A DNA stretch of 64,000 bases from Umezawaea tangerina. Its GTDB lineage: Bacteria > Actinomycetota > Actinomycetes > Mycobacteriales > Pseudonocardiaceae. The notes under the pieces are model-generated. The model ran no database searches, was not told the DNA's origin, and was given only the letters and a program-made list of their open reading frames with translations. The stretch covers positions 1-64,000 of the forward strand of contig NZ_PVTF01000022.1 of NCBI RefSeq assembly GCF_003002815.1. The letters run 5' to 3'. Position numbers and translations under genes: made by a program. Each line of letters opens with the position of its first letter. Position 1 is the first letter of the stretch. Positions 2,032-41,324 of this stretch are shown here, piece after piece.

Positions 2032-2064
2032 GGGGCCGTCAGGGATGACACCCCTGACGGCCCC
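2032..2064 (-). terminator. Strong hairpin between two consecutive PKS genes
   Basis: A perfect 13-bp stem (GGGGCCGTCAGGG at 2032-2044 with its complement at 2052-2064) has a 7-nt loop. It lies in the 179-bp gap between the giant PKS stop and the start of the next PKS. No T-run follows, as is common in actinomycetes. It could be a terminator, an attenuator or a processing site that sets the ratio of the two subunits. Confidence 0.6.
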
Positions 2065-2078
2065 CTAGGCGCCCCCTA
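2062..2078 (-). promoter_or_regulatory. CTAGGGG regulatory box before the second PKS gene
   Basis: On the minus strand CTAGGGG (2062-2068) points toward the PKS start, about 100 bp away. A second TAGGGG copy sits exactly 11 bp further upstream (2073-2078). The same 7-mer is found upstream of the other transcription units of this cluster. A TTAGTT at 2023-2028 is a possible -10 element. Its role as a binding site for the pathway regulator is inferred. Confidence 0.45.
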
Positions 2079-2138
2079 CGCATTCACCCCGAGAACAAGG
2101 GGAAATACGCGACCCTTATCGGGTGTGAACGCATTCCT

Positions 2139-5100
2139 CTAGACGCCGAACTCCTTGTCGATGAAGTCGAAGATCTCGTCGTCATCGGCGGTGTTGAGCT
2201 GGTCGGCGACGCTCTGGACGCCTCCCGCGGGCGCGTAGCGGGCCAGCAGCGCCTGGAGCCTGGCGACCACCGCGGTGCGCGCCTCGGAGTCCAGGTCGGT
2301 GCGTGCCGCGGCGCTCTCCAGGAGTCCCAGCTCGTCCAGGACGGGCTCGGGTGCCCGCTCGTCGAGCTCCAGCCGGTCGCGCAGGAAGTCGACCAGCGCG
2401 GCGGACGTCGGGTAGTCGAAGATGAGCGTCGCGGGCAGCGCCAGACCGGTCGCCGCGCCGAGCGTGTTGCGCAGCTCGACCGCGGACAGCGAGTCGAACC
2501 CGAGCTCGCTGAACGCCCGGTTCGGCTGGACCGCGTCGATCCCGCTGTGGCCCAGCACCGCGGCCACCCGTGCCCGCACCACGTCGAGCAGCAGCCGGTC
2601 CCGTTCCATCGGGGTCAGCGCGGCCAGGCGGCCCACCAGCTCCGACTGCTCGGGCTCGGCGGGGGCCGGTGCCATCGCCTCGCGCACCTCCGGCAGGTCG
2701 GCCAGCAGCGGGCTGGGCCTGGCCGCGGTGAACACCGCCGCGAACAGCTCCCAGTCCACGTCGGCCAGCGTGACCGTCGTGTCGCGCTGCGCCAACGACT
2801 CGCGCAGCGCGGCGACCGCCCGTGCGGCGGGCATCGCGGTCACGCCCCGGCGGCGCAGCTGCTCCGCCGCGTCGCCGTCGGCCATGCCGCCGTCGGCCCA
2901 CGGGCCCCAGGCGACCGACAGCGCCGCCAGCCCCCGTGCCCGGCGCGACTCGGCCAGGCCGTCCAGCGCGGCGTTCGCCGTGGAGTAGGCGGACTGGCCG
3001 CCGCTGCCCCACGTGCCCGCGATGGAGGAGAACAGCACGAACGCGTCCAGCTCGCGGTCGCCGAGCAGCTCGTCGAGGTGCCGGGCGCCCGCGACCTTCG
3101 CCGCGAGGACCGCGTCGAACTCCGCGAGGCCGTGCTCCTCGATCGGCTGGAACAGCTCGGCACCGGCCGCGTGCACCACCGACGTCGGCGGGTACTCGGC
3201 CAGCAGCGCCCGCACCGCGGCGCGGTCGGCGACGTCGCAGGCCACCACGGTGACCCGCGCGCCGAGGGCTTCCAGCTCGGCGGTCAGCTCGGCCGCGCCC
3301 GGCGCGTCCTGGCCGCGGCGCGAGGTGAGCACCAGGTGCTCGACGCCCACACCGGCCAGCCAGCGGGCCACGTGCCCGCCGAGCGCGCCGGTGCCGCCGG
3401 TGACCAGGACCGTGCCGCGCGGCGTCCACTCGGTCGCGCCGTCGGTCGCCGGTGCGTGCACGAGCCGTCGGCCGAACACGCCGTTCTCGCGGACGGCCAC
3501 CTGGTCCTCGGTGCCCGCCAGCACGGCGGTGACCCCGTCCAGGACGTGGTCGTCCACAGTGGACGGGACGTCGACCAGGCCACCCCAGCGGTGGGGGTGC
3601 TCCAGCGCCACGACCCGGCCGAGGCCCCAGAGCCCGGCCTGCACCGGGTCCACGTCCTCGGTCGCGGTCGCCACGCCGCCGCGGGTCAGGCACCACAGCG
3701 GCGCGTCGACCACGGCGTCGCCGAGAGCCTGCACCAGGACCACGGTCGACAGGGCGTCACCCACCAGGGACAGCACCCCGTCCACCTCGCCCGCGGTGAC
3801 GAGCACCTCGGCCAGCAGCTCGCGGTCGGTCGACGCGTCGACCGGCACGACCTCGAGGCCGCGGGCGGTGAGCCCGGCCAGCAGCGCGGCGTCGTGGCCG
3901 CCCTCGGGGGCGACGACGAGCCAGCGTCCGGACGCGGTCGCCGGGCCGGTAGTGACCGGCTCCCAGCGGACCCGGTAGCGCCAGCCGTCCACTGTGGACC
4001 GGTCACGCCGGGAGCGCCGCCACGACGACAGCGCGGGCAGCACCTCGCTGAGCGGGCGGTCGCCGTCGAGGTCCAGGGCCGCGCTGAACGACTCCAGGTC
4101 CCCGCGTTCGACGGCCTCCCAGAAGCGGGCGTCCACCTCGTCGACGGCGATCGCCGCCGGGTCGCCCGCCAGCCAGAACCTCTCGTGCTGGAACGCGTAC
4201 GTCGGCAGGTCGACCCGCTGGGCGCCGCTGCCCGCGAAGTAGGCGGCCCAGTCGACCGGCACCCCGCGCTCGTGCGCCTTGCCCAGCGCCTGGAGCAGGG
4301 TGGCGACCTCGGGGCGGTCCTTGCGCTGCCCGGCGACCAGCTCGGCGTCGGTCGCGGTCTCCGCGCCCATCGCGGTGAGCACGCCGTCCGGACCCAGCTC
4401 CAGGAACGTCGACACGCCCTCGGACTCCAGCGTCCGCACCGCGTCGGCGAACCGGACGGCCTCGCGGACGTGCCGCACCCAGTACTCGGGCGAGCACAGC
4501 TCCTCGGTGGTGGCGAGCTTCCCGGTCGACGTCGACACGATGGGGATCCTGGGCGCGGCGAAGGCCATGCCCTTGGCCGCCACCAGGAACTCGTCGAGCA
4601 TGTCGTCCATCAGCGGCGAGTGGAACGCGTGCGACACGGCCAGCCGCTTGGACTTCCGGTCGGGGAAGTGCCTCAACACCCGCTCGACCTCGTCCTCGGC
4701 ACCGGAGATGACGACGGAGGTCGGCCCGTTGACCGCCGCGATGGAAACCAGGGATTTCGCCAGATCGTCGGCTCCGCCGACGGCGAGGTGCGGCAACACC
4801 TCGTCCTCGGTGGCCTGCAACGCGACCATCGCACCACCGGCGGGCAGGGCCTGCATGAGCCGACCGCGAGCGCCGACCAGGACCGCCGCGTCCTCCAGCG
4901 TCAGCACGCCGGAGACGTGGGCGGCGGCCAGCTCGCCGATCGAGTGCCCCGCCAGGAAGTCCGGGCGGACGCCCCACGACTCGACGAGCCGGAACAGCGC
5001 GACCTCGAACGCGAACAGCGCGGGCTGGGCGAACTCCGTGCGGTCCAGCACCTCCTGGTCGTCCAGCCGGACGTCCAGCAGCGCGGCGACCTCGTCGAAC

Positions 5101-8100
5101 GCCTTGGCGAACACCGGGAACGCCGCGTGCAGCTCGCGGCCCATCCCGACCCGCTGGCTGCCCTGACCGGTGAACAGCACGGCCAGCCTGCCGCCGGACA
5201 CCGCCGACGACGGCTCCAGCGCGGCCAGCTCCCGCCGCAGCTCCTCCTGGTCCGCGGCCAGCAGCACCGCGCGGTGCTCCATCCGGGCCCGCGTGGTGGC
5301 CAGCGAGAAGCCGAGGTCCGCGAGGTCGGTCGGCGGCAGCGCGGCGAGCTGGTCGGCCTGCGCCCGCAGCGCCTCCGGCGTCCGGGCCGACAGCACGACC
5401 GGCACCAGCGGCAACGGGGTCCGCTCGACGACCGGCAGGTCCGCTTCGGGGGCCTGCTCGATGATCGTGTGCGCGTTCGTCCCGCTGATGCCGAACGACG
5501 ACACCGCGGCCCGCCGCGGCCGGTCCACCTCGGGCCACGCGCGCTGCTCGGTGAGCAGCTCCACGGCCCCGGAGGCCCAGTCCACGTGCGGTGTCGGCTC
5601 GCTCACGTGCAGCGTCTTCGGCGCCGTCCCGTGCCGCAGCGCCATCACCATCTTGATCACACCGCCGACACCCGCCGCCGCCTGGGCGTGGCCGATGTTC
5701 GACTTGAGCGAGCCCAGCAGCAGCGGGGTCTCGCGGTCCTGCCCGTAGGTGGCGAGCAGCGCCTGCACCTCGATCGGGTCGCCCAGCGGGGTTCCCGTGC
5801 CGTGGCCCTCGACCACGTCGACGTCCGAAGTGGACAGTCCGGCGTTGGCCAGCGCCTGGCGGATCACCCGCTGCTGCGACGGGCCGTTCGGGGCGGTCAG
5901 CGTGCTGGACGCGCCGTCCTGGTTGATCGCGCTGCCCTTGACGACGGCGAGCACCTGGTGCCCGTTGCGCCGCGCGTCGGACAGCCGCTCGACCAGCAGC
6001 ACGCCCACGCCCTCCGACCAGCCCGTGCCGTCCGCACCGGCGGAGTAGGCCTTCGACCGGCCGTCGGCGGACAGGCCGCGCTGGCGGGAGAAGTCGACGA
6101 ACGTGTCGGGCGTGGCCATCACGGTCACACCGCCTGCCAGCGCGAGGTCGCACTCACCGCTGCGCAGGGCCTGCACGGCCCAGTGCAGCGCCACGAGCGA
6201 GGACGAGCAGGCCGTGTCGACCGTGACCGCCGGGCCTTCCAGGCCGAACGTGTAGGACACGCGGCCGGAAACGACGCTGCCGGAGGTGCCGGTGCCGAGG
6301 TAGCCCTCGACCTCGTCCGGGATGGCCGACAGGTTCGTCGCGTAGTCGTGGTACATCAGGCCCGCGAACACACCGGTCCTGGTGCCGCGCACCTTCGCCG
6401 GGTCGATGCCCGCCCGCTCGAACGCCTCCCACGACGTCTCCAGCAGCAGTCGTTGCTGCGGGTCCATCGCCAGCGCCTCGCGGGGCGAGATCCCGAAGAA
6501 CGCCGGGTCGAAGTCGCCGGCCTCGTGCAGGAAGCCGCCTTCACGGGTGTAGGTCTTGCCGATGGCGTCGGGGTTCGGGTCGTACAGGCCGTCGAGGTCC
6601 CAGCCACGACCGGTCGGGAAGCCGGTGACCGCGTCGCGGCCCTCGGCCACGAGCTGCCACAGGTCCTCCGGCGAGCTGACCCCGCCGGGGAACCGGCAGG
6701 CCATCGCGACGATCGCGATCGGGTCGCCGTCGGCGACCTTCACGGAGGCGACCGCGTCGACCACCTCGTCCTCGTCGACCAGCTGGGTGCGCAGGTGCGT
6801 CGCCAGGGCGATCGACGTCGGGTAGTCGAACACCACGGTCGCGGGCAGCCGCAGGCCGGTCGCGGAGCCGAGCGCGTTGCGCAGCTCCACGGCGGACAGC
6901 GAGTCCAGCCCCATCTCGACCAGGCCGCGGCCCGGTTCGACGACACCGGAGTCCCGGTAGCCCAGGACGGCGGCGACCCGGCCGCGCACCAAGTCCAGCA
7001 GCAGCCGGTCCTGCTCCTCGGTCGGCAGGCCGAGCAGCCTGCGCGACCACGACGCCGACTCGGCCGAGGCCTTGGCGGCGTTGCGGCGCTTGGGAGTGCG
7101 GACCAGACCGCGCAGCAGCGCGGGCACGTCGGCGCTCGTGCGCAGCACGGCCGTGTCGAGCTTCATCGGCAGCACCAGGGCCGTGTCGGCGCGCAGCGCG
7201 GCGTCGAACAGCGCGAGGCCGTCGGCGACGGGCAGCACCGGCATGCCCGCCCGCGCCATCCGGGCGAGGTCGGCGGGCGAGAGCCCCGCTCCCATCCCGG
7301 TGCTCTGCTCCCACACGCCCCAGGCCAGCGACACCGCGGTCTGGCCGTTGGCCCGCCGGTGGGCGGCGAGGCCGTCCAGGAAGGTGTTGGCGGCGGCGTA
7401 GTTCGCCTGGCCGGGCGCGCCGAGCACACCGGAGGCCGAGGAGAACAGCGCGAACAGCTCCAGGTCGCCGGTGAGCTCGTGCAGGTGCCGTGCCGCGTCG
7501 GCCTTCGGGGCCAGCACGGTGTCGAAGCGCCGCGCGTCAAGGGATTCGAACACCCCGTCGTCCAGCACACCCGCGGTGTGCACGACGCCGGTCAGGTCGT
7601 CGATGCCCGCCAGCACGGCGGCAAGCGCTTCGCGGTCTGACACGTCGCAGGCGACGACGTCGACGTGGGCGTCCAGCTCGGCGACCAGCTCGGCCGCGCC
7701 GGGCGCGTCCGGGCCCCGCCGCGAGGTGAGGACCAGGTGCCGGACGCCGTACTCGGCCACCAGGTGCCGGGCCAGCTCCGCGCCCAGACCACCGGTGCCG
7801 CCGGTGACCAGCACCGTGCCGTCGAGGGTCTTCCCGGCCCCCAAGGCGAGCGGCACCAGCCGCGGCACGAACACCGTGCCGCCGCGGACCGCCATCTCGG
7901 GCTCGACCGCTCCGACCACGCCCGCGAGCGCGGGCTCGTCGATGTCCAGCAGCACGATCCGGTCCGGGTGCTCCGACTGCGCCGAGCGCACCAGGCCGGA
8001 CACGGCTGCCTGCGTCGGGTCGACGTCCTCGCCGGACACCGACACCGCGCCGGACGTGACGACGAGCAGGCTGTCCCGCTCGCCCGCCAGGAACTCCTGG

Positions 8101-29894: not shown

Positions 29895-30251
29895 TGCGCT
29901 CCACTATCCGCAGGCAGAATGTGCGACCGTCGGCTCATCGTTTCCTCCGCGCAGAGGCGCAGAAACCCCTAGCGGCCCCCTAAGGCCCCTTGCGTGCACA
30001 ACCGGGGTTGCCATGTGCGAAAGCCGTCGGTCTACAGTGGAACGCGACCGCCCGTTCCCGGTTCGGTCCCGAATTCCGGACAGCCCGCGATCCGTTCACG
30101 GGGAACCGGTGGACCACCAGGGGGCGCCCCGGAACTGGGGCCTTCTAGGGGTTGTAGTCCAGATCACACCCGCATACGGTGGCCATTCGCCAGGACGCAC
30201 CGGACCGGAAGCCCGTGTCGTGCAAGCAGTTGCGCACATCAGGAGGTAGGC
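29895..30251. promoter_or_regulatory. Divergent promoter region between the giant PKS and the small gene
   Basis: This 357-bp gap drives the PKS leftward and the small gene rightward. CCCCTA is repeated at 29966 and 29977 (11-bp period), with a CCCCTT at 29986, so the minus strand shows CTAGGGG pointing to the PKS ATG 72 bp away. On the plus strand CTAGGGG (30145-30151) points to the GTG at 30252 and is followed by TACGGT (30175-30180), a plausible -10. GGGGTTG occurs at 30004 and 30148. This looks like one control region for both directions; the regulator assignment is inferred. Confidence 0.55.
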
Positions 30252-30539
30252 GTGCCGAACAGTGAGATCACCGAGGTGCAGCGGCTCGTGAGCGTGCTCC
30301 GCAGGAAGGTAGCCTCGCTGCGGTTCCACTTCGGCGACGTTCCCGACGTGCGCAGGCTCCTCAACGACGTGGAACGCCTGGACATCGACATCACCGAGCT
30401 GCGCGGCAACGCCTCGCGCCCCCGCCGCGACGCCCAGCTGGCGGAGGTCGTGATGATCCCGGACGCCCCGTACAACCCCGATCTCTGGCACGGCGCCGAC
30501 GACGAGGGCGTCGGCGGGTACCGCCGTCAGACCGGCTGA
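30252..30539 (+). CDS. Small charged helical protein of unknown function (95 aa) beside the PKS
   Basis: I do not recognise this family. The GTG at 30252 is preceded by a full AGGAGG (30241-30246) at ideal spacing, which decides the start although the frame is open further upstream. Residues 1-50 are predicted helical with alternating Arg/Leu/Val and acidic residues (EVQRLVSVLRRKVASLRF, then VRRLLNDVERLDIDITEL), like a two-helix coiled-coil. The C-terminal third is Asp/Gly/Pro-rich and likely flexible. There is no signal peptide or membrane segment. It is divergent from the giant PKS and shares its control region with CTAGGGG boxes in both directions, so it is probably co-expressed with the PKS. 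A strong terminator follows. It might be an accessory or regulatory partner of the synthase or of the LAL regulator; that is conjecture. Confidence 0.75.
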   Translation: MPNSEITEVQRLVSVLRRKVASLRFHFGDVPDVRRLLNDVERLDIDITELRGNASRPRRDAQLAEVVMIPDAPYNPDLWHGADDEGVGGYRRQTG

Positions 30540-30885: not shown

Positions 30886-30886
30886 A

Positions 30887-33691
30887 TCAGGCGATGGAGG
30901 CGGCGTCGCTCCACAGGTCCGCGGGCAGGTCCTTGCGCTGCGTGACGTTCAGCTTGCGGTAGGCCTTCGTCAGGTGCTGCTCCACCGTGCTGATCGTGAC
31001 GTACAGCTTGTTCGCGATCTCGCGGTTCGTGTGCCCCAGCGCGGCCAGCCCGGCCACCCGGCGCTCGGCGTCCGACAACGTCGCCGCGCCGACCTCGGCG
31101 GCACCCTCACCGGACGATCCCGCGGACCGGTTCTGGTCCGGGATCAGCTGCGCGCACAACGGTTCCGCCTGGCAGTCCTTGGCCACTCGCCAAGCCCTCC
31201 TCACCATCATCCTGGCCCGGTCGGGTTCGCCGAGCTGGTGGTGCGTGTGGCTCAGGTCGGCCAGCACGCGGGCCACCTCCAGCTGCCCGCCCGCCGCCTG
31301 CACCTCGTCCAGCGCACCGTGCAGCAGCTGGGAGCGCTGCCGCAGGTCGAGCGTCGCGGCCTTGACCCGCATGGCCATCCCGCGCGACAACGACGGTCCC
31401 ATCACCGGCAGCGCCAGCTGCTGGTCGACGAGCTCGCGGGCCTTCGCCTGGTTGCCCAGCCGCAGGTAGACCTCGGCGGCACCGGTGCGCCACGGCAGCA
31501 GGCCGGGCGAGTCCAGGTGCCACTTGACCATCAGCTCGCCGCAGGACAGGAAGTCGCCCAGCGCCGCGGGCAGCTGCCGGGTCGAGAGGTGGTGGTGGCC
31601 CTTGGCGAACAGGTAGTGCAGACCGTAGCGACCGCGGTAGATGTGCTGCGGCACGCGCTGCGCCAGCGCCTCGGCGGCCTCGTCGAACTTGCCCATCGCG
31701 GTCGTCGCCTGCAGCAGCGTGCCGAGCGCCATCCCGACGCTGGCGCCCCACGTGCGCGGGTCGACCTTGTCCATGGCGAACCTCGCGTACTGGCGGGCGG
31801 CACCCAGGTCACCCATCCGCAGCGCGACCTCCGCGCGGATCATCGCCAGCTCGCCGCGCCAGCCGGGAGGGCTGGACGACTCGTGGCGGTCGGTCATCAG
31901 GGTGTCGCACCAGGACTTGGCGCTGTCGAGCTTCTCCAGGTACAGCAGCGTGCGCAGGGCGGCGCTGACCTCCTCGGTCGGCTCCTCCGCGAGGTTCGCG
32001 CTCTGCAGCACGCGTTCGGCGGTCATCACGACGCCGTCGTCGAAGTGGCCGCCGATGACCTTCGTCAACGCGGTGGCGGCCTGCACCCGCATGTCCAGGT
32101 CGACCGACACCCGGTCGGCGTCGGACACCTCGGCGGGCAGTCCGCTGACGATCTCCGGGTACGAGCCGAGCGCCCACATCCTGGTGATCGTGATCTCGGC
32201 CTTGCTGTGCTCGTCCAGCTCGTCCATCCGCTCGACGAGCCGCGACAGGCCCTCGGTCACGTCGTCGACGCGGCCGTGCACGACGAGGAAGCGGACGAAC
32301 CAGAGCAGGCCGCGGCCGAGGAGCTTGCCCTCGCGCATCGCCTCGCCCAACGCGGGGACGTGCTGCAACGCCGAGGCCGGGCTGAGCCGGAGCTTGAGGC
32401 GCACCAGCATCATCACCAGCTCGATGGGCGTCTCCTCGTCGGCCTGGTCGCGGACGGCCAGCTCGAGGTACTCGACGGCCTCCTCGACCTCGTCGTCCAG
32501 GAGCGCGGCCTCGGCGGCCTCGCGGAGCAGCGGCTGCGCCCACTCCGGGCAGTCGGTGCCCGCGGCGACCAGGTGGCTCGCGACCGTGCGCGGCTCGGCG
32601 CCGTCCTGGGCCAGCAGCCACGCGGCCTTCAGGTGCAGGTCGGGCAGGTCGGCGTTGGCCAGCGCGTCGTCCATGACGGCCTCGCGGATCGCCGGGTGGC
32701 GGTAGCTGTCGCCGCGCAGCAGGCCCATGACCACGAGGCTCTCGATGTCCTTGGCGGCCGTCTTGGCGCAGCGGTCGGTCATGCGGCCGAACAGCTTCGG
32801 CCGGTCGGACTGCGCGTCCAGCACGGCGAGCGCGTACGCGGCCTCGCGGACGGCCGGGTCGCCGCGGTGCAGGCAGCTCATGACCGCCTCGGCGAACCCC
32901 TCCCCCACAACGGGTTCCGCGACCGGGGCGTCGCCGTGGCCGAGCCGCACCCGCTGCTGGTCCTCCAGCAGCGCGCGCACCAGCAGCGGGTTGCCGCCGG
33001 TGACCTCGTAGTACTGCGCGCCGAACGCGTCGGCGATGCGGGCGTCCAGCTCGGAGGCGACCATCTCGCCGACGCCCGCGGGCGACAGCAGCGTCAGGCG
33101 GATGCTGTGGCAGTGCGGGTGGCGCAGGAACTCCGTGTGGAACAACGAGCGCGGCTCGCGGGAGCCGACGCACTCGGTGAACACCACGGCGACGCTCGCC
33201 GACCGCAGCCTGCCCAGCACGTGCCGGAGGGTCTCCTTCGACAGGTCGTCCATGTACTGCGCGTCGTCGACCACGACGACGATCGGGCGCTGTTCGGCGA
33301 TGTTCAGCAGCGCCGCACCGAGCTGGTGCAGCACGTGTCCGCGCTTGACCTCCGCGCCGTCCGCATCGCTCTCGCCGGTCCTGATAGGACTCGCGGCTTC
33401 CTCCAGCAGCCCCGCCAGGTAGGCGGCGCGATCCCCCGAGCAGAGCTCGAGGGGGATGTTGCGCTGGAGCTGGCTGAGGACGCCCAGCGGCAGAGAGCGC
33501 TCTCCCGCGGTGCAGGAGGCGTTGAGCAACAGCGCTCCCGAACGCTGGACTTCCTCGCCGAAGGCGTGCAGCAGCGCGGTCTTCCCGGTGGCTCTGGCAC
33601 CGGTGATCATGGCCACGCCGGACCGACCTCGGAGGCAGTCCTCCAGCACGTGCTGGAGGGTGGCCAGTTCTCTAGTCCGTTCGACCAACAT
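30887..33691 (-). CDS. LAL-family (large ATP-binding LuxR) transcriptional regulator, 934 aa
   Basis: The N-terminus holds a Walker A motif (GARATGKT, residues 31-38) and a hydrophobic Walker B-like strand (PIVVVVDDAQYMDDLS), as in STAND/AAA ATPases. The middle is a long helical, TPR-like region. The C-terminus (about residues 865-925) is a LuxR/GerE helix-turn-helix (LSDAERRVAGLAALGHTNRE, then IANKLYVTISTVEQHL). This is the usual architecture and size of LAL pathway-specific activators of actinomycete PKS clusters. A sigma-70-like promoter can be placed about 110 bp upstream, with a GGAAAGGA site before the ATG. It sits between the PKS side and the starter-unit enzymes and is the obvious candidate to bind the shared CTAGGGG boxes. 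Direct DNA binding is not shown by the sequence. Confidence 0.93.
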   Translation of the reverse strand: MLVERTRELATLQHVLEDCLRGRSGVAMITGARATGKTALLHAFGEEVQRSGALLLNASCTAGERSLPLGVLSQLQRNIPLELCSGDRAAYLAGLLEEAASPIRTGESDADGAEVKRGHVLHQLGAALLNIAEQRPIVVVVDDAQYMDDLSKETLRHVLGRLRSASVAVVFTECVGSREPRSLFHTEFLRHPHCHSIRLTLLSPAGVGEMVASELDARIADAFGAQYYEVTGGNPLLVRALLEDQQRVRLGHGDAPVAEPVVGEGFAEAVMSCLHRGDPAVREAAYALAVLDAQSDRPKLFGRMTDRCAKTAAKDIESLVVMGLLRGDSYRHPAIREAVMDDALANADLPDLHLKAAWLLAQDGAEPRTVASHLVAAGTDCPEWAQPLLREAAEAALLDDEVEEAVEYLELAVRDQADEETPIELVMMLVRLKLRLSPASALQHVPALGEAMREGKLLGRGLLWFVRFLVVHGRVDDVTEGLSRLVERMDELDEHSKAEITITRMWALGSYPEIVSGLPAEVSDADRVSVDLDMRVQAATALTKVIGGHFDDGVVMTAERVLQSANLAEEPTEEVSAALRTLLYLEKLDSAKSWCDTLMTDRHESSSPPGWRGELAMIRAEVALRMGDLGAARQYARFAMDKVDPRTWGASVGMALGTLLQATTAMGKFDEAAEALAQRVPQHIYRGRYGLHYLFAKGHHHLSTRQLPAALGDFLSCGELMVKWHLDSPGLLPWRTGAAEVYLRLGNQAKARELVDQQLALPVMGPSLSRGMAMRVKAATLDLRQRSQLLHGALDEVQAAGGQLEVARVLADLSHTHHQLGEPDRARMMVRRAWRVAKDCQAEPLCAQLIPDQNRSAGSSGEGAAEVGAATLSDAERRVAGLAALGHTNREIANKLYVTISTVEQHLTKAYRKLNVTQRKDLPADLWSDAASIA

Positions 33692-33839: not shown

Positions 33840-34243
33840 TAACGTCGGCGAGAACTGATCGGTAACCCGTCGCACTTGCAACGTGGGTGTTACGAAGTTC
33901 CCGGCACAACTGCGGACAAGTCTCGTGAAGGATCGTGAGAATTGCATGAAACACGGGAGTGATAAAACCCTACTTTCGTAGGTTGCACCCCGTCCTACAT
34001 GGGGCGAATGCCCCGCTCCGGCCGGCAAAACCACAGGTCAAGCCGGTCAGAAACCCGTAAGGTTTTCATGAATTGATTACGGTCGGTAACTCCCCTGTTG
34101 AGACAAGGGCAGTAATCATTGCCCGATTGAACACCCCTTCGCTAGCGTTTGGACCAGGGCCGGTTGTTTAGCCAGGCGAAACAGCAACGCTGGCTACTTA
34201 CCCGCCGGGTCATTGCTACCAGGCCTAATAAGGGGTATCAAGC

Positions 34244-34279
34244 CCCCTAGGGGCGTACTGGGGCACGACAGGGGTTGCC
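34244..34279 (+). promoter_or_regulatory. CTAGGGG/GGGGTTG regulatory region of the starter-unit genes
   Basis: The palindrome CCCCTAGGGG (34244-34253) is followed by CTGGGG (34258-34263) and GGGGTTGCC (34271-34279), so GGGG blocks recur at 10- and 11-bp steps. TACATA at 34295-34300 is a possible -10. GGGGTTGCC also occurs in the PKS control region at 30004. Confidence 0.45.
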
Positions 34280-34334
34280 GCAGAACAAGCGCACTACATA
34301 GCGTCGGCGTACTCGAAGTTTCTCGGAATTGAAT

Positions 34335-34360
34335 CATAATGCCGTTTCATAATGACGTTA
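34335..34360 (+). repeat. 13-bp tandem repeat before the amidohydrolase gene
   Basis: CATAATGCCGTTT is directly followed by CATAATGACGTTA (11 of 13 identical), 74 bp upstream of the ATG. It may be a direct-repeat operator or part of the leader; function unknown. Confidence 0.5.
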
Positions 34361-34433
34361 TCACTACGGACATTACCGAGCGCCTTCACGAGCCGCCGCC
34401 CCACGACGATCGGCGGAGTAAGGACCGACGCGC

Positions 34434-35228
34434 ATGAGGATCGCTTGCTGGCAGACGGTCGCCGGTGGTGAGCCGCCCCGCACGCGGCTCAGAGCCGCGG
34501 CCCGCGGCGCGGCCGAGGCCGGCGCCCAGTTGCTGGTCACGCCCGAGATCTCCCTCACCGGTTACCACCTCGGCCCGCGCCGCCTCCGCGAACTGGCCGA
34601 GCCCGATGACGGCCCGATGTGCGAGGAGGCCTCGGAAATAGCCGAGGAAACCGGTGTCGCCATCGTCTTCGGCTGGCCGGAGTCGTCCGGCGGAAAGGTC
34701 TACAACACCGTCCGCATGGTCGACGGCACCGGGCGGGCGCTGGCCACCTACCGCAAGACGCACCTGTTCGGCGACATCGACCGGGCCATCTTCGAGCCCG
34801 GCGACGTGGGTGTCGTCCAGGCCGAGCTCGGCGGCTTCACCGTCGGGATGGTCATCTGCTACGACGTCGAGTTCCCGGAGACGGTGCGCGCGCACGCCCT
34901 GGCGGGCACGCAGCTGCTGGTGGTGCCGACCGCGTTGATGAAGCCGTGGGACATCGTCGCCAGGACCCTCGTGCACACCCGCGCGCTGGAGAGCCAGCTC
35001 TACATCGCCTACGTCAACTGGGCGGGCGCCGAACGCGAGCTGGAGTACTGCGGACTCACCCGCGTCGTCGGCCCCTCGGGCCACGCCCTGCACGACGACG
35101 TCCACGGCGAGCAGCTCGTGCTGGCCGACCTCGACGCCACCCGGATCACGAAGGCCAAGCAGGTCAACGACTACCTGGCCGACCGACGACCCGAGCTCTT
35201 CGGACCCCCTTCCACCGACACCGCCTGA
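34434..35228 (+). CDS. Carbon-nitrogen hydrolase (nitrilase superfamily amidase), 264 aa
   Basis: The nitrilase-superfamily Glu-Lys-Cys triad is intact: Glu38 (VTPEISLTGY), Lys108 (TYRKTHLFG) and Cys142 (VICYDVEFPE). The length is normal for an aliphatic amidase/omega-amidase type enzyme, and there is no signal peptide, so it acts in the cytoplasm on small amides. It lies 35 bp upstream of an amino-acid 2-monooxygenase homologue. That enzyme family makes carboxamides from amino acids, so the natural reading is that this enzyme hydrolyses the amide to the free acid. In arginine-primed polyketide pathways the same enzyme pair gives 4-guanidinobutanamide and then 4-guanidinobutyrate. The actual substrate here (arginine, lysine, or an aromatic amino acid) is not determined. 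An AAGGA site precedes the ATG. Confidence 0.9.
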   Translation: MRIACWQTVAGGEPPRTRLRAAARGAAEAGAQLLVTPEISLTGYHLGPRRLRELAEPDDGPMCEEASEIAEETGVAIVFGWPESSGGKVYNTVRMVDGTGRALATYRKTHLFGDIDRAIFEPGDVGVVQAELGGFTVGMVICYDVEFPETVRAHALAGTQLLVVPTALMKPWDIVARTLVHTRALESQLYIAYVNWAGAERELEYCGLTRVVGPSGHALHDDVHGEQLVLADLDATRITKAKQVNDYLADRRPELFGPPSTDTA

Positions 35229-35263
35229 TCACAGGCCTCCACCGCCACACGGGGGTAGCGCAC

Positions 35264-36949
35264 ATGGACCAGCACAGCCCGATCGACGACCTCCGGGGCC
35301 TGCGGGCCCCGGTCACGATGTTCGGCCCCGACTTCCCGTTCGCCTACGACGACTGGCTCACCCACCCCGCGGGCCTCGGTGCCGTGCCCGCCTCGGCGCA
35401 CGGCACCGAGGTCGCCGTCGTCGGCGGCGGCATAGCCGGGCTGGTCGCGGCCTACGAGCTGATGAAGCTCGGGCTGCGGCCGGTGGTGTACGAGGCCGAG
35501 CAGCTCGGCGGGCGGATGCGGTCGGTGCCGTTCCGGGAGCACCCGGAGTCGGTCGCGGAGATGGGCGCCATGCGCTTCCCGGTCGCCGCGACGACGTTGT
35601 TCCACTACATCGACAAGGTGGGGCTGAAGACCACGCCGTTCCCCAACCCGCTGTCCACCGACACCCCGAGCACGGTGGTGGACCTCAAGGGGGTCAGCCA
35701 CTTCGCGCACACGATGACCGACCTGCCGATGATCTACCAGCAGGTCGCCGACGCGTGGGACAAGGCGCTGCAGGAGACCGCGGAGGTCTCCGCGATGGAG
35801 GACGCGGTCCGCAGCCGCGACGTCGCGACCATCAAGGCGATCTGGAACCGGCTCGTGCCGCGGCTGGACGACGTGTCGTTCTACGGCTTCCTCACCGCCT
35901 CGCCCGCGTTCGCCTCGTTCCAGCACCGCGAGATCTTCGGCCAGGTGGGCTTCGGCACCGGCGGCTGGGACACCGACTTCCCCAACTCCATGCTGGAGAT
36001 CCTCCGGGTCGTCTACAACGGCGCGGACGTCGACCAGCAGCGCATCATCGGCGGCAGCCAGCAGCTGCCGACCAGGCTGTGGACGCACGAGCCGGAGTTC
36101 CTCGACCACTGGCCGGAGGGCACGACGCTGGCGTCGCTGCACACCGGCGGCGTGCCGAGGAACGCGGTGAAGTGGATGCGCCGCACCGGGCACGGCATCA
36201 CCGTCGAGGACGTCGACCACGGCATCCGCACCTACCCGGCCGCGGTGTTCACCGCGCAGAGCTGGGCGCTGCTGTCGAAGGTGAAGTGCGACGAGGCCCT
36301 GCTGCCGCAACCGCTGTGGACCGCGGTGGAGCGCACGCACTACATGGGTTCGTCGAAGCTGTTCGTGGTGACCGACAGGCCGTTCTGGCTGGACGTCGAC
36401 CCGCGCACCGGCAGGCACGTCATGAGCATGACGCTCACCGACCGGATGCCGCGCGGCGTCTACCTGTTCGACGACGGGCCGGACAAGCCGGGCGTGATGT
36501 GCCTGTCCTACACGTGGAACGACGACTCGCTGAAGCTCGCGACGCTCACCCTCCAGGAGCGGCTGGAGGTCGTGCTCGGCTCGCTGGCCGAGATCTACCC
36601 CGGCGTGGACATCCGCACGCACATCATCGGCGACCCGGTGACCATCACCTGGGAGACCGAGCCGCACTTCATGGGCGCGTTCAAGTCGAACCTGCCGGGG
36701 CACTACCGCTACCAGCGCAAGCTGTACACGCACTTCATGCAGGACGACCTGACCGACGCGCAGCGCGGGCTCTTCCTGGCGGGCGACGACATCTCCTGGT
36801 GCGGCGGGTTCGCCGAGGGCGCCGTCACGACGGCGCTCAACGCGGTGTGGGGCGTCCTGCACCACCTCGGGGGCCGCACTCATCGCGGCAACCCCGGTCC
36901 CGGTGACGTCTTCAGCGAGATCGCCCCCCTGGAGCTGCCGGAGTTCTGA
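35264..36949 (+). CDS. FAD-dependent amine oxidase, amino-acid 2-monooxygenase type, 561 aa
   Basis: A Rossmann FAD-binding motif at residues 54-59 (VVGGGIAGL, then a GxRPVVYEAE strand end) and the C-terminal FAD motif (LFLAGDDISWCGGFAEGA) identify a flavin amine oxidase. Length and layout fit tryptophan/phenylalanine/lysine 2-monooxygenases, which oxidatively decarboxylate an L-amino acid to the amide one carbon shorter. It is translationally close to the upstream amidase (35-bp gap, GGGGG ribosome site) and followed by a strong terminator, so the two form an operon. In several linear and macrocyclic polyketide clusters such a pair converts arginine to the 4-guanidinobutyryl starter, which fits the ACP-only loading module here. 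Substrate choice cannot be read from the sequence. A plain L-amino-acid oxidase is the main alternative. Confidence 0.88.
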   Translation: MDQHSPIDDLRGLRAPVTMFGPDFPFAYDDWLTHPAGLGAVPASAHGTEVAVVGGGIAGLVAAYELMKLGLRPVVYEAEQLGGRMRSVPFREHPESVAEMGAMRFPVAATTLFHYIDKVGLKTTPFPNPLSTDTPSTVVDLKGVSHFAHTMTDLPMIYQQVADAWDKALQETAEVSAMEDAVRSRDVATIKAIWNRLVPRLDDVSFYGFLTASPAFASFQHREIFGQVGFGTGGWDTDFPNSMLEILRVVYNGADVDQQRIIGGSQQLPTRLWTHEPEFLDHWPEGTTLASLHTGGVPRNAVKWMRRTGHGITVEDVDHGIRTYPAAVFTAQSWALLSKVKCDEALLPQPLWTAVERTHYMGSSKLFVVTDRPFWLDVDPRTGRHVMSMTLTDRMPRGVYLFDDGPDKPGVMCLSYTWNDDSLKLATLTLQERLEVVLGSLAEIYPGVDIRTHIIGDPVTITWETEPHFMGAFKSNLPGHYRYQRKLYTHFMQDDLTDAQRGLFLAGDDISWCGGFAEGAVTTALNAVWGVLHHLGGRTHRGNPGPGDVFSEIAPLELPEF

Positions 36950-36978
36950 GTGAGTCGCATCACTCCCAACCCTGTCGT

Positions 36979-37015
36979 CGGAGCCCCCGTGCCGCAACGC
37001 GCCACGGGGGCTCCG
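36979..37015 (+). terminator. Terminator after the amine oxidase gene
   Basis: A 13-bp stem (36979-36991 with 37003-37015, core GGAGCCCCCGTG) with an 11-nt loop begins 30 nt after the stop codon. Confidence 0.85.
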
Positions 37016-37072
37016 GTGCAACTCTGCACGCTTGTACACCTGGCCATTCACTTTTCGACAGGCCCCAGGACG

Positions 37073-37120
37073 ACGGGAAGGGCGGGTCCGGGGTGACCAC
37101 CCCGGACCCGCCCTTCCCGT
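37073..37120. terminator. Very long bidirectional terminator hairpin
   Basis: A perfect stem of at least 21 bp (37073-37093 with 37100-37120), extendable to 23 bp, sits 15 nt beyond the stop of the convergent UbiD gene. It can serve both strands. Confidence 0.88.
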
Positions 37121-37135
37121 TCGGCAGAGGAGCTC

Positions 37136-38596
37136 TCAGACCCAGTTGTCGACCACCTGCTTCTGCAGCTCGACCGGGTAGGAGGCCGCGAACGACGTGT
37201 GCGCCATCCGCTCCCCGATCGGGGGCAGCAGGCCGTCGAAGACGACCCTGGGGCCCCAGCCGCGCTTGTACTCGATGTCGGTGTGGCTGACGAAGAGCGG
37301 CAGCACCACGCTGTCCATCTGCACCCGCTTGGAGACGGGGTGGACGCGGGTGGCGATCGCCCAGGTGACCTCGGCGAGGTCGGTGGGGTCGATGTCGTCG
37401 TCGAGCAGGAAGATCTGCGGGAAGTACAGGCCCGCCTTGTTCCAGAACAGCGTCTGCCCGATGTACTGCGCGAGCGTGTCGCTGGTCGTGTCGGGGTCCA
37501 TCATGTCGCGCCAGTCCGGCGGCACGGTCACCACGAGCCACATGCCCGCGGAGTCCATCGGCGACCACACTGTGCTGACCGGCAGCTGGACCTCGCGCAG
37601 CCGGGCCAGGCACTGGCTGGCGGCGCCGACGCAGGTGACGGTGTGGTACTCGTCCGGCGGGCGGCCCTCGGCCACCAGCGGCCAGATGGGGTCGTCGCGG
37701 TGCGTGATGGCCTCGACGTGGAAGGTCGGCTGCTTGGTGACGTCCATCGGGTGGTAGCCGGCGGCCTCGCCGAACGGGCCCTCCAGCGCGTCGCGCTCCA
37801 GGGACACGTGCCCCTCGATCACGACCTCGGCCGTGGCGGGCACGAGCAGGTCCACGGTCTGCGCCTTGACGAGCTCGATGGGCTCGCCCACCAGAGCGCC
37901 GAGGAAGCCCGCGTCGAACGCGCCGTCGGGCAGCGGGAAGCCCGACACGTACGGGATCCCCGGCTCGGCGCCCTGCACCAGCGCGTAGGGCATCGGCTTG
38001 CCGATCTCCACCCACTGGTTCCAGACGTGCCCGATGTGCTGGCCGTCGGCGACCAGTCCCGCCATCCGCTTGCCGTCGATCTTCATCACCCGCGCGATGG
38101 ACCAGTTCGTCCACTCGCCGTCCGGGGTCTGCACGATCAGGGCGCCCCAGGTGTTCGCGTACCGGCCGCCGTCCTTCTCGTGCACGATCGGGATCGGGAA
38201 CGAGTCGAGGGTGGCGTCGTCGCCGAGCAGGACGTTCTCCTGGCACGGTCCGCTCTCGACGATCACCGGCGGGATCGGCTCGCGGGTCTGGGCGTCGGCC
38301 AGCGCGTCGACGATCTGCTGCCCCGTGCTGTCGGGCTGCAGGCCCAGCGACAGCGCGATCCTGGCGTAGGGCATGTCCTTGCGCGACGACATGGCCGCGG
38401 GGGCGCCGAGTATCCGGAAACCCTCGCGGGCGCCCCGGATGTTGGTGAACAGCGGTGCCGGGGAGCGGATCTCGTAGCTCCGCCTCGTGATCGCGGCGGG
38501 CTCCATGTCGCCGTCGACCTCCCGGTCGATCGTCACCAGGTCCCCGATGTCCGCCAACGCGTCGAGGTAGCCGCGCAGATCAGTGAAGTGCTTCAT
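37136..38596 (-). CDS. UbiD-family (prenylated-FMN) decarboxylase, 486 aa
   Basis: The UbiD signature LEGPFGEAAGYHP is present, with Glu272 and Glu277 matching the conserved catalytic glutamate pair, and the prFMN/metal-binding SIARVMKIDGKRMAG segment upstream. The length is that of Fdc/UbiD enzymes. They decarboxylate alpha,beta-unsaturated or aromatic acids using prenylated FMN supplied by UbiX. The gene overlaps the 3' end of the UbiX gene by 17 bp and has its own GAAGGAG site, so the pair is coupled. In a PKS cluster the closest precedent known to me is TtnC/TtnD of tautomycetin, where a UbiD homologue decarboxylates the released polyketide acid to a terminal alkene. A role in aromatic acid metabolism unrelated to the polyketide is possible but the operon context argues against it. 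Confidence 0.93.
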   Translation of the reverse strand: MKHFTDLRGYLDALADIGDLVTIDREVDGDMEPAAITRRSYEIRSPAPLFTNIRGAREGFRILGAPAAMSSRKDMPYARIALSLGLQPDSTGQQIVDALADAQTREPIPPVIVESGPCQENVLLGDDATLDSFPIPIVHEKDGGRYANTWGALIVQTPDGEWTNWSIARVMKIDGKRMAGLVADGQHIGHVWNQWVEIGKPMPYALVQGAEPGIPYVSGFPLPDGAFDAGFLGALVGEPIELVKAQTVDLLVPATAEVVIEGHVSLERDALEGPFGEAAGYHPMDVTKQPTFHVEAITHRDDPIWPLVAEGRPPDEYHTVTCVGAASQCLARLREVQLPVSTVWSPMDSAGMWLVVTVPPDWRDMMDPDTTSDTLAQYIGQTLFWNKAGLYFPQIFLLDDDIDPTDLAEVTWAIATRVHPVSKRVQMDSVVLPLFVSHTDIEYKRGWGPRVVFDGLLPPIGERMAHTSFAASYPVELQKQVVDNWV

Positions 38597-39191
38597 CGCC
38601 GTTCTCCTTCCGGTGCTGGCGTGCTGCCTTCCCGCCGTCCCACCGTGTCGTGAGGTCGTTGTCCACGCCGAACTGGTCGAGCACGCGACTGGTCACGTGG
38701 TCGACGATGTCGGGCACACCCCTGGGGTGGTTGTAGAAGGCCGGCATCGGGGGCAACATGACGACGCCCATCCTGGCCAGCACCAACATGTTCTCGAGGT
38801 GGATCTCGCTGAGCGGGGTCTCCCTCGGCACGAGCACCAGCTTGCGGTGCTCCTTGAGGGTCACGTCGGCGGCCCGCGCGATCAGGCCCTCGCCGTACCC
38901 GACCCTGATCGCGGCCAGGGTCTTCATGCTGCACGGGGCCACGACCATCCCGTCGGTGCGGAACGAGCCGCTGGAGATGGCCGCGGCCTGGTCGTGCGAG
39001 CCGTACACGTGGTCCGCCAACGACTGCACCTGGCGGACCGTGTAGTCGGTCTCCATCTCGATCGTGGCCCGCGCCCACTTGCTGAGCACGAGGTGCGTCT
39101 CCACACCGACCGCGCTCAAGGTCTCCAGGATCCGGATGCCGATCGCGGCACCGGTGGCACCGGTCATGCCGACGACGACGCGCCTCGGCAT
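38580..39191 (-). CDS. UbiX-family flavin prenyltransferase, 203 aa
   Basis: The N-terminus VVVGMTGATGAAIGIRIL is the typical flavoprotein/UbiX FMN-binding start. It is followed by VVAPCSMKTLAAIRVGYGEG and the LVLVPRETPLSEIH block of UbiX proteins, and by LPPMPAFYNHP. UbiX makes prenylated FMN from FMN and dimethylallyl (mono)phosphate for the adjacent UbiD. I chose the ATG at 39191; a GTG at 39218, nine codons earlier, is in frame and possible, and neither has a good ribosome site, which suggests coupling to the ABC permease gene ending 33 bp upstream. The gene is third in a four-gene minus-strand operon (ATPase, permease, UbiX, UbiD). Confidence 0.93.
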   Translation of the reverse strand: MPRRVVVGMTGATGAAIGIRILETLSAVGVETHLVLSKWARATIEMETDYTVRQVQSLADHVYGSHDQAAAISSGSFRTDGMVVAPCSMKTLAAIRVGYGEGLIARAADVTLKEHRKLVLVPRETPLSEIHLENMLVLARMGVVMLPPMPAFYNHPRGVPDIVDHVTSRVLDQFGVDNDLTTRWDGGKAARQHRKENGDEALH

Positions 39192-39224
39192 CCGAATCCC
39201 GTCACCGAACGCCCGCACCGGCGA

Positions 39225-40271
39225 TCACTTGTCTTCCCAGCGGAACGACACCGCGGCGATGGCGCTGACCACCAGGGTGAAGCCGATGAGCACCGAGCCG
39301 GGCAGGACGAGCGCGTCAAAACCCTTGCCGCGCACCAGGACGTCGAGCATGCCCTCGTTCATGTGCCGCAGGGGAAGCGCGTTGGTGATGAGCTTGACCC
39401 AGTCCGGGGCCTTGTCGATCGGGAAGAAGCTGCCCGCCAGCAGGGCCATCGGGAGCACGACGAGGTTCGCCGCGCCGGTCACCGAGTCCTCGGTCTTGCA
39501 GATGGCGCCCAGCAGCATGCCGACCGAGAAGAACGCCAGCGTCCCGAGTATGAGCAGCGGGATCGCGAGCCACCACTGGTTGGACAGCTTGAGACCGAAC
39601 ACCGGGAGGGTCGCCACCGCCACGAACAGGACCGCCTGCAGCAGCGCGATCACGACCGAGAGCAGCAGCCTGGACGAGAGCACCGAGCCGCGGCCGATGG
39701 GGGCGAGCTGGATGCGCCGCAGGACCTGCTTGCGGCGCCACGCCACCAGGGTGAGCGCGGAGCTGAACACCGCGGCGGTGGAGACACCCCAGGAGAGGAT
39801 ACCGGGGGTGAGGTACTGGATCGGCTCGAAAGCCGTCTCCTCGATGGGTTTCTGCCGCACCGCGTACTTCGGCGGGGTGGTGCCCGCGCCGAGGTTCGCG
39901 CTCGCGATCGCGTCGGAGATCTTGGCCAGCGCGGGCCCGGTCTCGGCGCGGTCGCCGTTGGCGTAGCGGACGTCGATCGTGTCGCCCTGCGACACGACGA
40001 TCGCCGCCACCTTGCCGTCGCGCAGCATGTCGATCGCGCTGCTCGACTCCTTGATCCGCTGGATGTTGACGCCCTCGGAGTTCTGCAGCGCGGCGACCAC
40101 GCGGCTGTCGCCGACCACCGCGATCTCGACGTTGCTGGCCAGCTTCACACCGGAGAGCAGGGCGAACACGACGAGGAACATCAAGGGGAACATGAAGGTG
40201 AAGAAGAGTGCTGCCTTGTCCCGGATCGAGGCCTTGAACATGGCCACGGACAGGCTGGTAAAGGCGTTCAT
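39225..40271 (-). CDS. ABC-2 type exporter permease, 348 aa
   Basis: The layout is the ABC-2 permease one: an N-terminal membrane helix (about residues 20-42, LFFTFMFPLMFLVVFALL), then a soluble loop of about 110 residues, then five hydrophobic segments in the C-terminal half (including VSTAAVFSSALTLVAW, LQAVLFVAVATLPVFG, LGTLAFFSVGMLLGAI and VLPMALLAGSFFPI). It follows its ATPase gene after 73 bp with a GGAGACGG ribosome site, and precedes UbiX by 33 bp. Such two-gene systems in antibiotic clusters usually export the product and give self-resistance, as with DrrAB. Substrate is inferred from context only. Confidence 0.93.
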   Translation of the reverse strand: MNAFTSLSVAMFKASIRDKAALFFTFMFPLMFLVVFALLSGVKLASNVEIAVVGDSRVVAALQNSEGVNIQRIKESSSAIDMLRDGKVAAIVVSQGDTIDVRYANGDRAETGPALAKISDAIASANLGAGTTPPKYAVRQKPIEETAFEPIQYLTPGILSWGVSTAAVFSSALTLVAWRRKQVLRRIQLAPIGRGSVLSSRLLLSVVIALLQAVLFVAVATLPVFGLKLSNQWWLAIPLLILGTLAFFSVGMLLGAICKTEDSVTGAANLVVLPMALLAGSFFPIDKAPDWVKLITNALPLRHMNEGMLDVLVRGKGFDALVLPGSVLIGFTLVVSAIAAVSFRWEDK

Positions 40272-40344
40272 GTCGCCGTCTCCGCTCGAAGTGCTGACGA
40301 CGTCCGGGGCACGAGCACCGTTGCGACGCCAGGGGGTTGGTGGG

Positions 40345-41256
40345 TCACTCGCGGTACGCGCGGCCGGTCAGGTGCAGGAAGACGTCCTCGAGGGTGGCCG
40401 TCCGGACCTGCGCCTTGTTCAACGCGTCGAGCTCCCCCAACGCCTTGATCGTGAGGCCCGCGTCGTTGGTCGCGATGATGACCGAGACGCCGTCGTCGAT
40501 GACCTTGTCGGCACCGGGGAGGTTCCTGGCGATCTCGACGGTGACCGTGCCGTGCTCGACGATGACCTGGGTCTGCGCGTCGAGCTTGCGCACCAGCCAC
40601 GCCGGCGCGCCCATCGCCATGACCCGTCCTTTGTCGACGACCGCCACCCGGTCGCAGAGGATCTCGGCCTCGTCGAGGTGGTGGGTGGTGTAGACGATCG
40701 TCTTGCCGCGCGCCTGGATGGCCCGCAGCACGTCCCAGAGGTTGCGGCGCGCCTGGGGGTCGAGCGCCGCGGTCGGTTCGTCCAGGAACACGATCTCGGG
40801 GTCGTGCGCCAGCGCGCACGCGATGGAGAGGCGTTGCCGCTGCCCGCCCGAGAGGTTGTTCTCCTGGACGTCGGCCTTGTCGGTCAGGCCGACCAGTTCC
40901 AGCATGTCGACGGCGGCAGCCCGGCTGACGCCGTAGAGCGATCCGAAGGTCTGCAGCTGCTCCTTGGACGTGAGCCGCTCGAAGAACGACGACGCCTGCA
41001 GCTGCACGCCCATCTTGGGCAGTAGCGCGGGATTCCGCGGCCAAGGGCTCTCACCGAGGATGCGCACGGAACCGGAGTCCGGCTTCCGCAGCCCCTCGAT
41101 GATCTCCAGGGTGGTGCTCTTCCCTGCCCCGTTGGGGCCGAGAAGACCGAAGAACTCTCCTTCCGCGACGGTGAACGACACACCGTCGACGGCACGCAAG
41201 TCGCCGTAGGACTTGCGAATGTCGCTCACGACGATCGCGGGCCCGTCTGCTCTCAT
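40345..41256 (-). CDS. ABC transporter ATP-binding protein (DrrA-like), 303 aa
   Basis: All nucleotide-binding motifs are intact: Walker A GPNGAGKST, signature LSGGQRQRL, Walker B IVFLDEP, and the H-loop in YTTHHLDEAE. The C-terminal extension after about residue 220 is like that of drug-exporter ATPases of the DrrA type. I chose ATG 41256 (MRADGPAIVVSDIRKSYGD), which puts the start directly before the first ABC strand; the frame is open for 25 more codons upstream but without family similarity. It heads the operon with the permease, UbiX and UbiD. The perfect palindrome CTAGGGGAGCCCCTAG lies 53 bp upstream, with GATACA as a possible -10 between them. Confidence 0.93.
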   Translation of the reverse strand: MRADGPAIVVSDIRKSYGDLRAVDGVSFTVAEGEFFGLLGPNGAGKSTTLEIIEGLRKPDSGSVRILGESPWPRNPALLPKMGVQLQASSFFERLTSKEQLQTFGSLYGVSRAAAVDMLELVGLTDKADVQENNLSGGQRQRLSIACALAHDPEIVFLDEPTAALDPQARRNLWDVLRAIQARGKTIVYTTHHLDEAEILCDRVAVVDKGRVMAMGAPAWLVRKLDAQTQVIVEHGTVTVEIARNLPGADKVIDDGVSVIIATNDAGLTIKALGELDALNKAQVRTATLEDVFLHLTGRAYRE

Positions 41257-41308
41257 GCCGGGAAACGCTAGGGCTGTATCGGTTTCGCCACAGCAGCTGA
41301 GCACGGAT

Positions 41309-41324
41309 CTAGGGGAGCCCCTAG
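41309..41324. promoter_or_regulatory. Perfect palindromic regulatory box CTAGGGG-AG-CCCCTAG
   Basis: Two 7-bp arms in inverted orientation are separated by 2 bp, midway between the divergent exporter operon (start 41256) and the siderophore-interacting protein gene (start 41415). It is the most complete copy of the CTAGGGG element seen elsewhere in the cluster. Its 16-bp layout resembles the dyad sites bound by LuxR-type helix-turn-helix regulators of polyene clusters (PimM-type consensus CTVGGGAWWTCCCBAG). Confidence 0.65.

Follow-up and report, generated by a model that had tools for sequence, protein, structure and literature searches.

What reads the short word CTAGGGG that recurs between the genes of a modular polyketide synthase (PKS) cluster, and in which form is it read? 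The word lies in the 64-kb window analysed here, which opens contig C22 of a draft actinobacterial genome of 10.68 Mb (G000), and in which a sequence-only reading had placed it before every transcription unit. We propose that the unit is an array of direct boxes on one helical face, the last of them touching a promoter, and that these arrays are very probably the activator-binding sites of the cluster's own LAL regulator, acting in a MalT-like manner. The arrays, their spacing, their promoter-like geometry, their conservation and their link to one LAL subfamily with an invariant recognition helix can be read from the DNA and its translations; from these we infer binding and activation by the LAL, an oligomeric mechanism and a ligand.

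The window contains seven matches to CTAGGGG at five places, all five intergenic, although intergenic DNA makes up only about 2.0 kb of the first 42.2 kb when the start of the ABC ATPase gene is set at about 41256 (its longest open reading frame (ORF), 40345-41331, would contain the fifth place, 41309-41324). With 131 copies in the genome, 0.78 would be expected per 64 kb (P 1.8e-5 for seven matches, 1.3e-3 for five places), and dinucleotide shuffles of the window gave a mean of 2.64, with 2 of 100 reaching seven. The distribution is therefore not one of chance, as had been claimed. All the positions given earlier were found again, namely 2062-2068 and 29966-29972 (minus), 30145-30151 and 34247-34253 (plus), and 41309-41315 (plus) with 41318-41324 (minus); an overlapping match that had been overlooked, 34244-34250 (minus), makes 34244-34253 the palindrome CCCCTAGGGG. 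The rarity of CTAG (16 in the window vs 50 expected) and the 11-bp period of CCCCTA/TAGGGG, exact at sites 1 and 2, also hold, and the distance to the start codons, put at 60-180 bp, measured about 50-180 bp. Since CTAG is depleted, the reversed word (2261 matches) was an uninformative control for CTAGGGG.

The genome-wide count, which had been suggested as a check, thus confirms the excess in the window but makes the exact 7-mer, at 131 copies, a poor marker alone. We dropped it as the unit because the boxes persist at promoters where it is absent: C16:87702, on another contig, keeps its boxes without CTAGGGG, which is present there in G022, the complete genome of a congener. Two generalisations built on the 7-mer do not hold as stated. 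As to its standing before every transcription unit, 553 bp separate the start of the LAL gene from the closest site; as to its always pointing at the gene, the 41309 site faces both ways and is without the promoter geometry of the other sites.

At four of the five window places, two or three direct AGGGG or TGGGG boxes stand 9-11 bp apart in the orientation of the gene that follows, the final box abuts a −35-like hexamer, and a −10-like hexamer follows after 17-18 bp (by eye). The spaced word AGGGGN6AGGGG occurs three times in the window, always at array promoters, and its reversal GGGGAN6GGGGA does not occur there. The features, as taken from the sequence, are as follows.

2051-2077, minus strand: site 1, upstream of the PKS-B gene, three AGGGG boxes (2073-2077, 2062-2066, 2051-2055) in 11-bp steps, retained in G022 and in the further relative G060.
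2022-2050, minus strand: putative site 1 promoter adjoining the last box, −35 TGTCAT (2045-2050), 17 bp, −10 TAGTTT (2022-2027), conserved in G022 and G060.
29966-29990, minus strand: site 2, upstream of PKS-A, AGGGG boxes 29986-29990, 29977-29981 and 29966-29970 (steps of 9 and 11 bp).
29937-29965, minus strand: putative site 2 promoter, −35 TTTCTG, 17 bp, weak −10 AACGAT, partly conserved.
30136-30151, plus strand: site 3, TGGGG 30136-30140 and AGGGG 30147-30151, 11 bp apart.
30152-30180, plus strand: putative site 3 promoter, −35 TTGTAG, 17 bp, −10 TACGGT.
34244-34274, plus strand: site 4, CCCCTAGGGG (34244-34253) with boxes AGGGG 34249, TGGGG 34259 and AGGGG 34270, 10 and 11 bp apart.
34275-34304, plus strand: putative site 4 promoter, −35 TTGCCG, 18 bp, −10 TAGCGT.
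41309-41324, no strand assigned: site 5, palindrome CTAGGGGAGCCCCTAG between the exporter operon and the SIP gene, without box-to-−35 geometry.

At site 1, a 16-bp inverted repeat (2032-2064) shares bases with box 3 and with the −35 region; it may be a PKS-A terminator or a hairpin of the promoter. On inspection by eye it is not retained at a homologous promoter elsewhere in the genome (C18:164474), which has a like layout and whose boxes and promoter are retained.

Are these arrays kept in relatives, and do they extend beyond the contig? Further G000 contigs named here are C6, C7, C8, C14, C16, C18 and C20, and the relatives compared besides G022 and G060 include G306 (Lentzea, locus L071). 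At site 2 the spacers vary while the boxes are constant across G000, G022 and G060, and a Lentzea locus (L071:9823; LAL identity 68-70%) has a two-box array at the same position. At site 3 the last box, the −35 and the −10 are retained in G022 and G060, the upstream box being displaced in G060. Site 4 is conserved in both but degenerate in G306.

Since C16 aligns with G022 from 8407139 on, it continues C22, and its arrays at 34637, 87702 and 96873 are collinear with G022 8441647, 8494582 and 8504130. In G022, whose LAL is 96% identical to that of G000, the 200 kb around the locus hold 12 CTAGGGG matches at eight places (8365603 to 8504128), belonging to the exporter operon, the amidase operon, the small gene, three PKS genes and two further units. 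The cluster has eight places in total, in identical order in G022; box, −35 and −10 are seen by eye at seven of them and a TANNNT −10 at five. The proposal of a cluster-wide cis element is supported, but that it defines the cluster's edges was too strong a statement, since the cluster runs into C16 and two unlinked genes have boxes (see below). Contig C18 ends (164451-166491) in the first part of a PKS gene, preceded by a promoter homologous to site 1. We considered C18:164453 as part of this cluster and rejected it, as it is a second PKS gene start of which the 200 kb of G022 hold no second copy; it probably belongs to a second, related PKS cluster.

If the LAL reads the arrays, they should accompany its homologues. 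At E <1e-100, LAL homologues were found in 139 of the 390 genomes of the family, with no more than two candidates scored in each; from this match list 40 neighbourhoods were picked by hand (mostly 20 kb, 791 kb in total; the LAL set), and 19 control stretches (380 kb) were drawn from 19 of the same genomes. TAGGGG occurred 210 times in the LAL set and 29 times in the controls (26.6 vs 7.6 per 100 kb), and TAGGGGTT 42 times vs none, 35 of the 42 in stretches called non-coding, which make up 21% of this DNA. When words were ranked by log-likelihood without prior choice, TAGGGG was the first 6-mer and TAGGGGTT the first 8-mer; TAGGGGT was the third 7-mer, behind GGGGTGG and TGGGGTG. An array, or the composite AGGGGTTN20-23TANNNT, was present in 27 of 40 LAL neighbourhoods vs 3 of 19 controls (Fisher 2.5e-4, an optimistic value given that the genomes are related).

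Could such counts arise as a compositional accident, from runs of G in the intergenic DNA of a GC-rich genome? The 131 copies of the 7-mer and the lack of genome-wide enrichment of simple words would fit such a reading, but the gap histogram contradicts it. In the LAL set, TANNNT follows AGGGGTT at gaps of 20-23 in 24 of 83 sites, and in 13 of the 62 that remain after removal of near-copies (0.15 expected for the 62); at 36 other gaps it follows none. After the permuted words GAGGGTT, GGAGGTT, GGGAGTT and GGGGATT, no TANNNT stands at gaps 20-23. The boxes are also in helical phase: upstream of 62 TAGGGGT sites, 20 direct boxes lie at 9-12 bp and 11 at 19-23 bp, compared with 5 at 13-18 and 6 at 24-29, and inverted boxes have no comparable peak. 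The spacing to the −10, this phase, the conservation and the permuted-word controls together make an accident extremely improbable.

The sequence-only reading had given the 16-bp palindrome at 41309 the layout of LuxR-HTH sites in polyene clusters; on that model the sites would be 16-bp palindromes of the PAS-LuxR type, bound by a small LuxR dimer. Site 5 matches 13 of 16 letters of the published consensus CTVGGGAWWTCCCBAG, 34244-34253 is palindromic as well, and PAS-LuxR sites too carry their CTVGGG half-site at the −35 (available text of PMC9774167). However, the match is confined to 41309 and the remaining places are direct repeats, which are common in the LAL set, where CTAGGGGN1-3CCCCTAG occurs in none of the 40 neighbourhoods. 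The palindrome is 16 bp long in G000 and G022, as described, but 15 bp in G060, and with 150 of 226 candidates scored, the GerE matches found on C22 were two, the LAL and, at 94399, a protein of 644 aa. We therefore consider a small LuxR dimer a most unlikely reader.

The direct repeats raise a different candidate, since SARP regulators bind heptameric direct repeats in 11-bp steps, sometimes three of them, usually overlapping the −35 (available text of PMC10972967 and PMC5930380). Arrays with an identical period near the −35 could thus be SARP operators. Scoring 150 of 185 candidates gave 63 matches to the BTAD domain in the genome but none within the cluster spans, the one on C22 lying at 83009 (33.6 bits) and the one on C16 at 220872, and Pfam scans of nine ORFs in C16:91-104 kb and ten in window 42-52 kb found no BTAD. 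Together with the fact that the word tracks LALs sharing one recognition helix, this makes binding by a SARP very unlikely.

That helix, ST(V/I)EQHLT(R/K), is found in the best helix-turn-helix (HTH) of all 40 neighbourhoods and of 7 of 7 further loci (47/47), and in none of 14 aligned HTHs of other large GerE proteins in G000 (six more gave no usable alignment). We rejected an enrichment near large GerE proteins in general: in the 20 G000 neighbourhoods of other such proteins (ORFs of 798-1263 aa, chosen without an ATPase-domain check), CTAGGGG occurred 7 times vs 4.9 expected and GGGGN5-6AGGGGTT once vs 1.2. Since enrichment is seen only near ST(V/I)EQHLT proteins and not near the 20 others, the word follows the helix rather than large GerE proteins generally. 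The LAL at 30887-33691, earlier named as the binder, is thus probably the right protein, though the palindromic mode proposed for it is not supported.

The same helix, STVEQHLTKAYRKL, is carried by a second protein of G000, a short LAL paralog at C7:205630-207258 without the ATPase module and 71% identical to the LAL over residues 391-934. Such a same-helix regulator, constitutive or competing with the cluster LAL, might be the main reader of the boxes; its own 20-kb stretch lacks an array, and unlinked promoters have boxes. Against this, G022 keeps the arrays with a single match at E <1e-100 (two candidates scored) and no short-form ortholog seen. We regard this paralog as an unlikely main reader, and retain the cluster LAL in that role. 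A CTAGGGG at C7:205605, next to the paralog, has no array and is probably unrelated.

Do the boxes reach beyond the cluster? GGGGN5-6AGGGGTT occurs 33 times in G000 vs 10 for the reversed word, and 771 vs 447 times over 150 family genomes, 98 of which lie above their own control. The composite is found 11 times vs 3 reversed, four times in the cluster and once at a terpene synthase gene; in the five of the remaining six that were inspected by eye, neither AGGGG nor TGGGG stands 9-12 bp upstream. The match at C20:96260 has CGGGG at 21, and that at C14:57162 reads like what we take to be a tRNA end. Two unlinked promoters have boxes on TTG:

C8:219122-219153: three boxes in steps of 13 and 11 bp, without a clear −10, before the gene of a 1846-aa multidomain acyl-CoA carboxylase.
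C6:458583: two boxes 10 bp apart, then TTGTCC-TTATTTT, before a terpene synthase gene.

The boxes of both are conserved in G022 and G060, the DNA upstream of the carboxylase array having diverged; the G022 terpene synthase match has one internal TAG stop, and a terpene synthase match was not found in G306 at E <1e-30. The cluster LAL, the C7 paralog or both may act at these two promoters. It appears about as probable as not that one LAL subfamily reads a fixed code (tandem AGGGG, a single helical face, the last box on the −35) from which regulons can be predicted, and that the G000 LAL also activates unlinked genes, above all the acyl-CoA carboxylase, which would provide the giant PKS with malonyl-type extender units.

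Several observations weigh against the arrays as LAL operators. Site 5 deviates from the array geometry, the −10s of site 2 and C16:34637 are not TANNNT, and all putative −35 and −10 hexamers were assigned by eye. No array or composite is present in 13 of the 40 LAL neighbourhoods, which are mutually dependent and were chosen by hand, and three controls do have one, the controls being arbitrary stretches rather than other biosynthetic clusters. The permuted word GGGGATT has a box at 10-12 in 3 of 24 sites. For GGGGN5-6AGGGGTT, 36 of the 150 family genomes lie below their own control, and several of the 33 G000 places look coding. Neither AGGGGN6AGGGG (29 vs 34 reversed) nor TAGGGGTT (105 vs 153) is enriched genome-wide in G000, and the G306 carboxylase lacks the boxes.

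How might such an array work? In the mechanism that we propose, the array would comprise direct boxes, two or three in number and for the most part (T/C)AGGGG, 9-11 bp or about one helical turn apart, the last abutting the −35 of a sigma-70-type promoter, often as AGGGG-TTGNNN-17/18-TANNNT. Being a STAND ATPase, the LAL would oligomerise there once activated, with one HTH per box and all of them on the same side of the helix; RNA polymerase would be contacted by the subunit nearest the promoter, as with MalT. The minus-strand box of site 4 may serve the LAL gene itself. This AGGGG is followed after two bases by TTGATA-17-TAGCAA (34210-34253), and the stretch is conserved in G022 and largely in G060; it is possible that it is the LAL gene promoter, with autoregulation and a leader of about 500 nt.

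The genes that the arrays would serve are listed below.

1-1959, minus strand: 5' part of PKS-B (docking domain, ketosynthase, start of the acyltransferase; domain search), running off the contig.
2139-29894, minus strand: PKS-A, 9251 aa, an ORF with a 9251-codon frame in G022 too.
30252-30539, plus strand: small gene, 95 aa, resembling the N-terminal part of the short LAL paralog on C7 (sequence comparison).
30887-33691, minus strand: LAL regulator and proposed binder, 934 aa, AAA_16 ATPase and GerE HTH (Pfam), helix STVEQHLTKAYRKL.
34434-35228, plus strand: carbon-nitrogen hydrolase (amidase; domain search).
35228-36949, plus strand: flavin amine oxidase/monooxygenase-like enzyme (domain search), start approximate; the domain lies in ORF 34619-36949.
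37136-41256, minus strand: UbiD, UbiX-like flavoprotein, ABC-2 permease and ABC ATPase (domain search; start 41256 inferred).

The regulator belongs to the LAL class, whose members have about 900-1000 aa with an AAA/STAND ATPase at the N terminus and a GerE HTH at the C terminus, by its length of 934 aa, its AAA_16 match (73.2 bits, residues 2-170) and its GerE match (39.1 bits, residues 871-922). The 95-aa product aligns with the C7 paralog collinearly from the start, with 29-31% identity across 85-89 residues (two-sequence comparison, E 1e-5 to 2e-5), and such a short form is present in G060 as well; this fusion-like paralog hints that the 95-aa protein may act on the LAL. Genes for an AMP-ligase, a VinK-like acyltransferase and an arginase-family enzyme make up the C16:87702 unit; taken together with those for the amidase and the amine oxidase (34434-36949), they would point to an arginine-derived starter unit. 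The UbiD/UbiX pair (37136-39218), unexpected in a giant modular PKS cluster, has its best NCBIfam matches, below cut-off, in BagN/FevL and BagM/FevK (bagremycin/ferroverdin decarboxylases). Upstream of the SIP gene, TTAGGCTACCCTAA at 41374-41387 resembles what we take to be an IdeR/DmdR iron-regulator box, and given this box SIP may lie outside the LAL regulon.

Other regulators are encoded nearby. A TetR-type gene lies at window 51202-51840, and a LacI-type gene at C16:95394-96521 just precedes the cluster's last array, which sits between it and a hydrolase gene; neither type would be expected to account for direct phased boxes. The short LuxR-type protein at C16:99778-101683 was rejected as the binder, having another helix (RTIEFHLS) and no ATPase match.

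The usual role of LALs is to switch on antibiotic clusters, often of the type I polyketide kind (available text of PMC7105598), yet for the LAL SCO6993 one study did not succeed in predicting a consensus site (available text of PMC9628970). A readable phased box in a fixed promoter geometry would make the regulons of silent clusters predictable and expose unlinked targets such as precursor supply. Box arrays would also help to place cluster borders where an assembly is fragmented; in G000 the array common to both contigs led from C22 to C16, and the complete genome of G022 later confirmed the join. Furthermore, the arrays give a direct test of actinobacterial LALs as MalT-like oligomers.

Among known systems, MalT of E. 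coli and Klebsiella is the closest in design: a LuxR-type HTH on a large STAND ATPase, with asymmetric, G-rich, repeated boxes that it binds cooperatively as a multimer, the proximal one at the −35 (available text of PMC7567727 and PMC4381067). The arrays here likewise repeat an asymmetric box with the proximal copy on the putative −35 (by eye), but the MalT word GGGGA(T/G)GAGG is replaced by mostly (T/C)AGGGG, with boxes 9-12 bp apart, and sensor, ligand and targets differ between MalT and the cluster LAL. The MalT-type activator of Actinoplanes sp. SE50/110, also actinobacterial, has a motif overlapping the −35 of 17 start sites in one region (available text of PMC7567727); that motif is an inverted TCATCC-5-GGATGA, in contrast to the direct AGGGG boxes here. 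SlnR of the salinomycin cluster is, like the regulator here, a cluster-situated LAL activator (available text of PMC10100954 and PMC7105598). PAS-LuxR regulators of the PimM type, as far as the source describes them, share the LuxR-type HTH and the half-site at the −35 but are small PAS-domain proteins on a 16-bp inverted repeat, and none was seen in the cluster. SARP operators, as described in the papers cited above, share direct repeats in 10-11-bp steps near the −35, but with another word and another protein family. In the literature searched, no AGGGG LAL box was found among the matches listed, most subscription papers lying outside its coverage. SlnR reportedly recognises ACCCCT/AGGGGT in an inverted-repeat layout, a result said to be that of Zhu et al. 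2017, whereas the boxes here are direct, phased and tied to the −35. If so, the word itself has been described for one LAL of this kind, and the novelty lies in its reach across the subfamily, the direct phasing and the promoter geometry.

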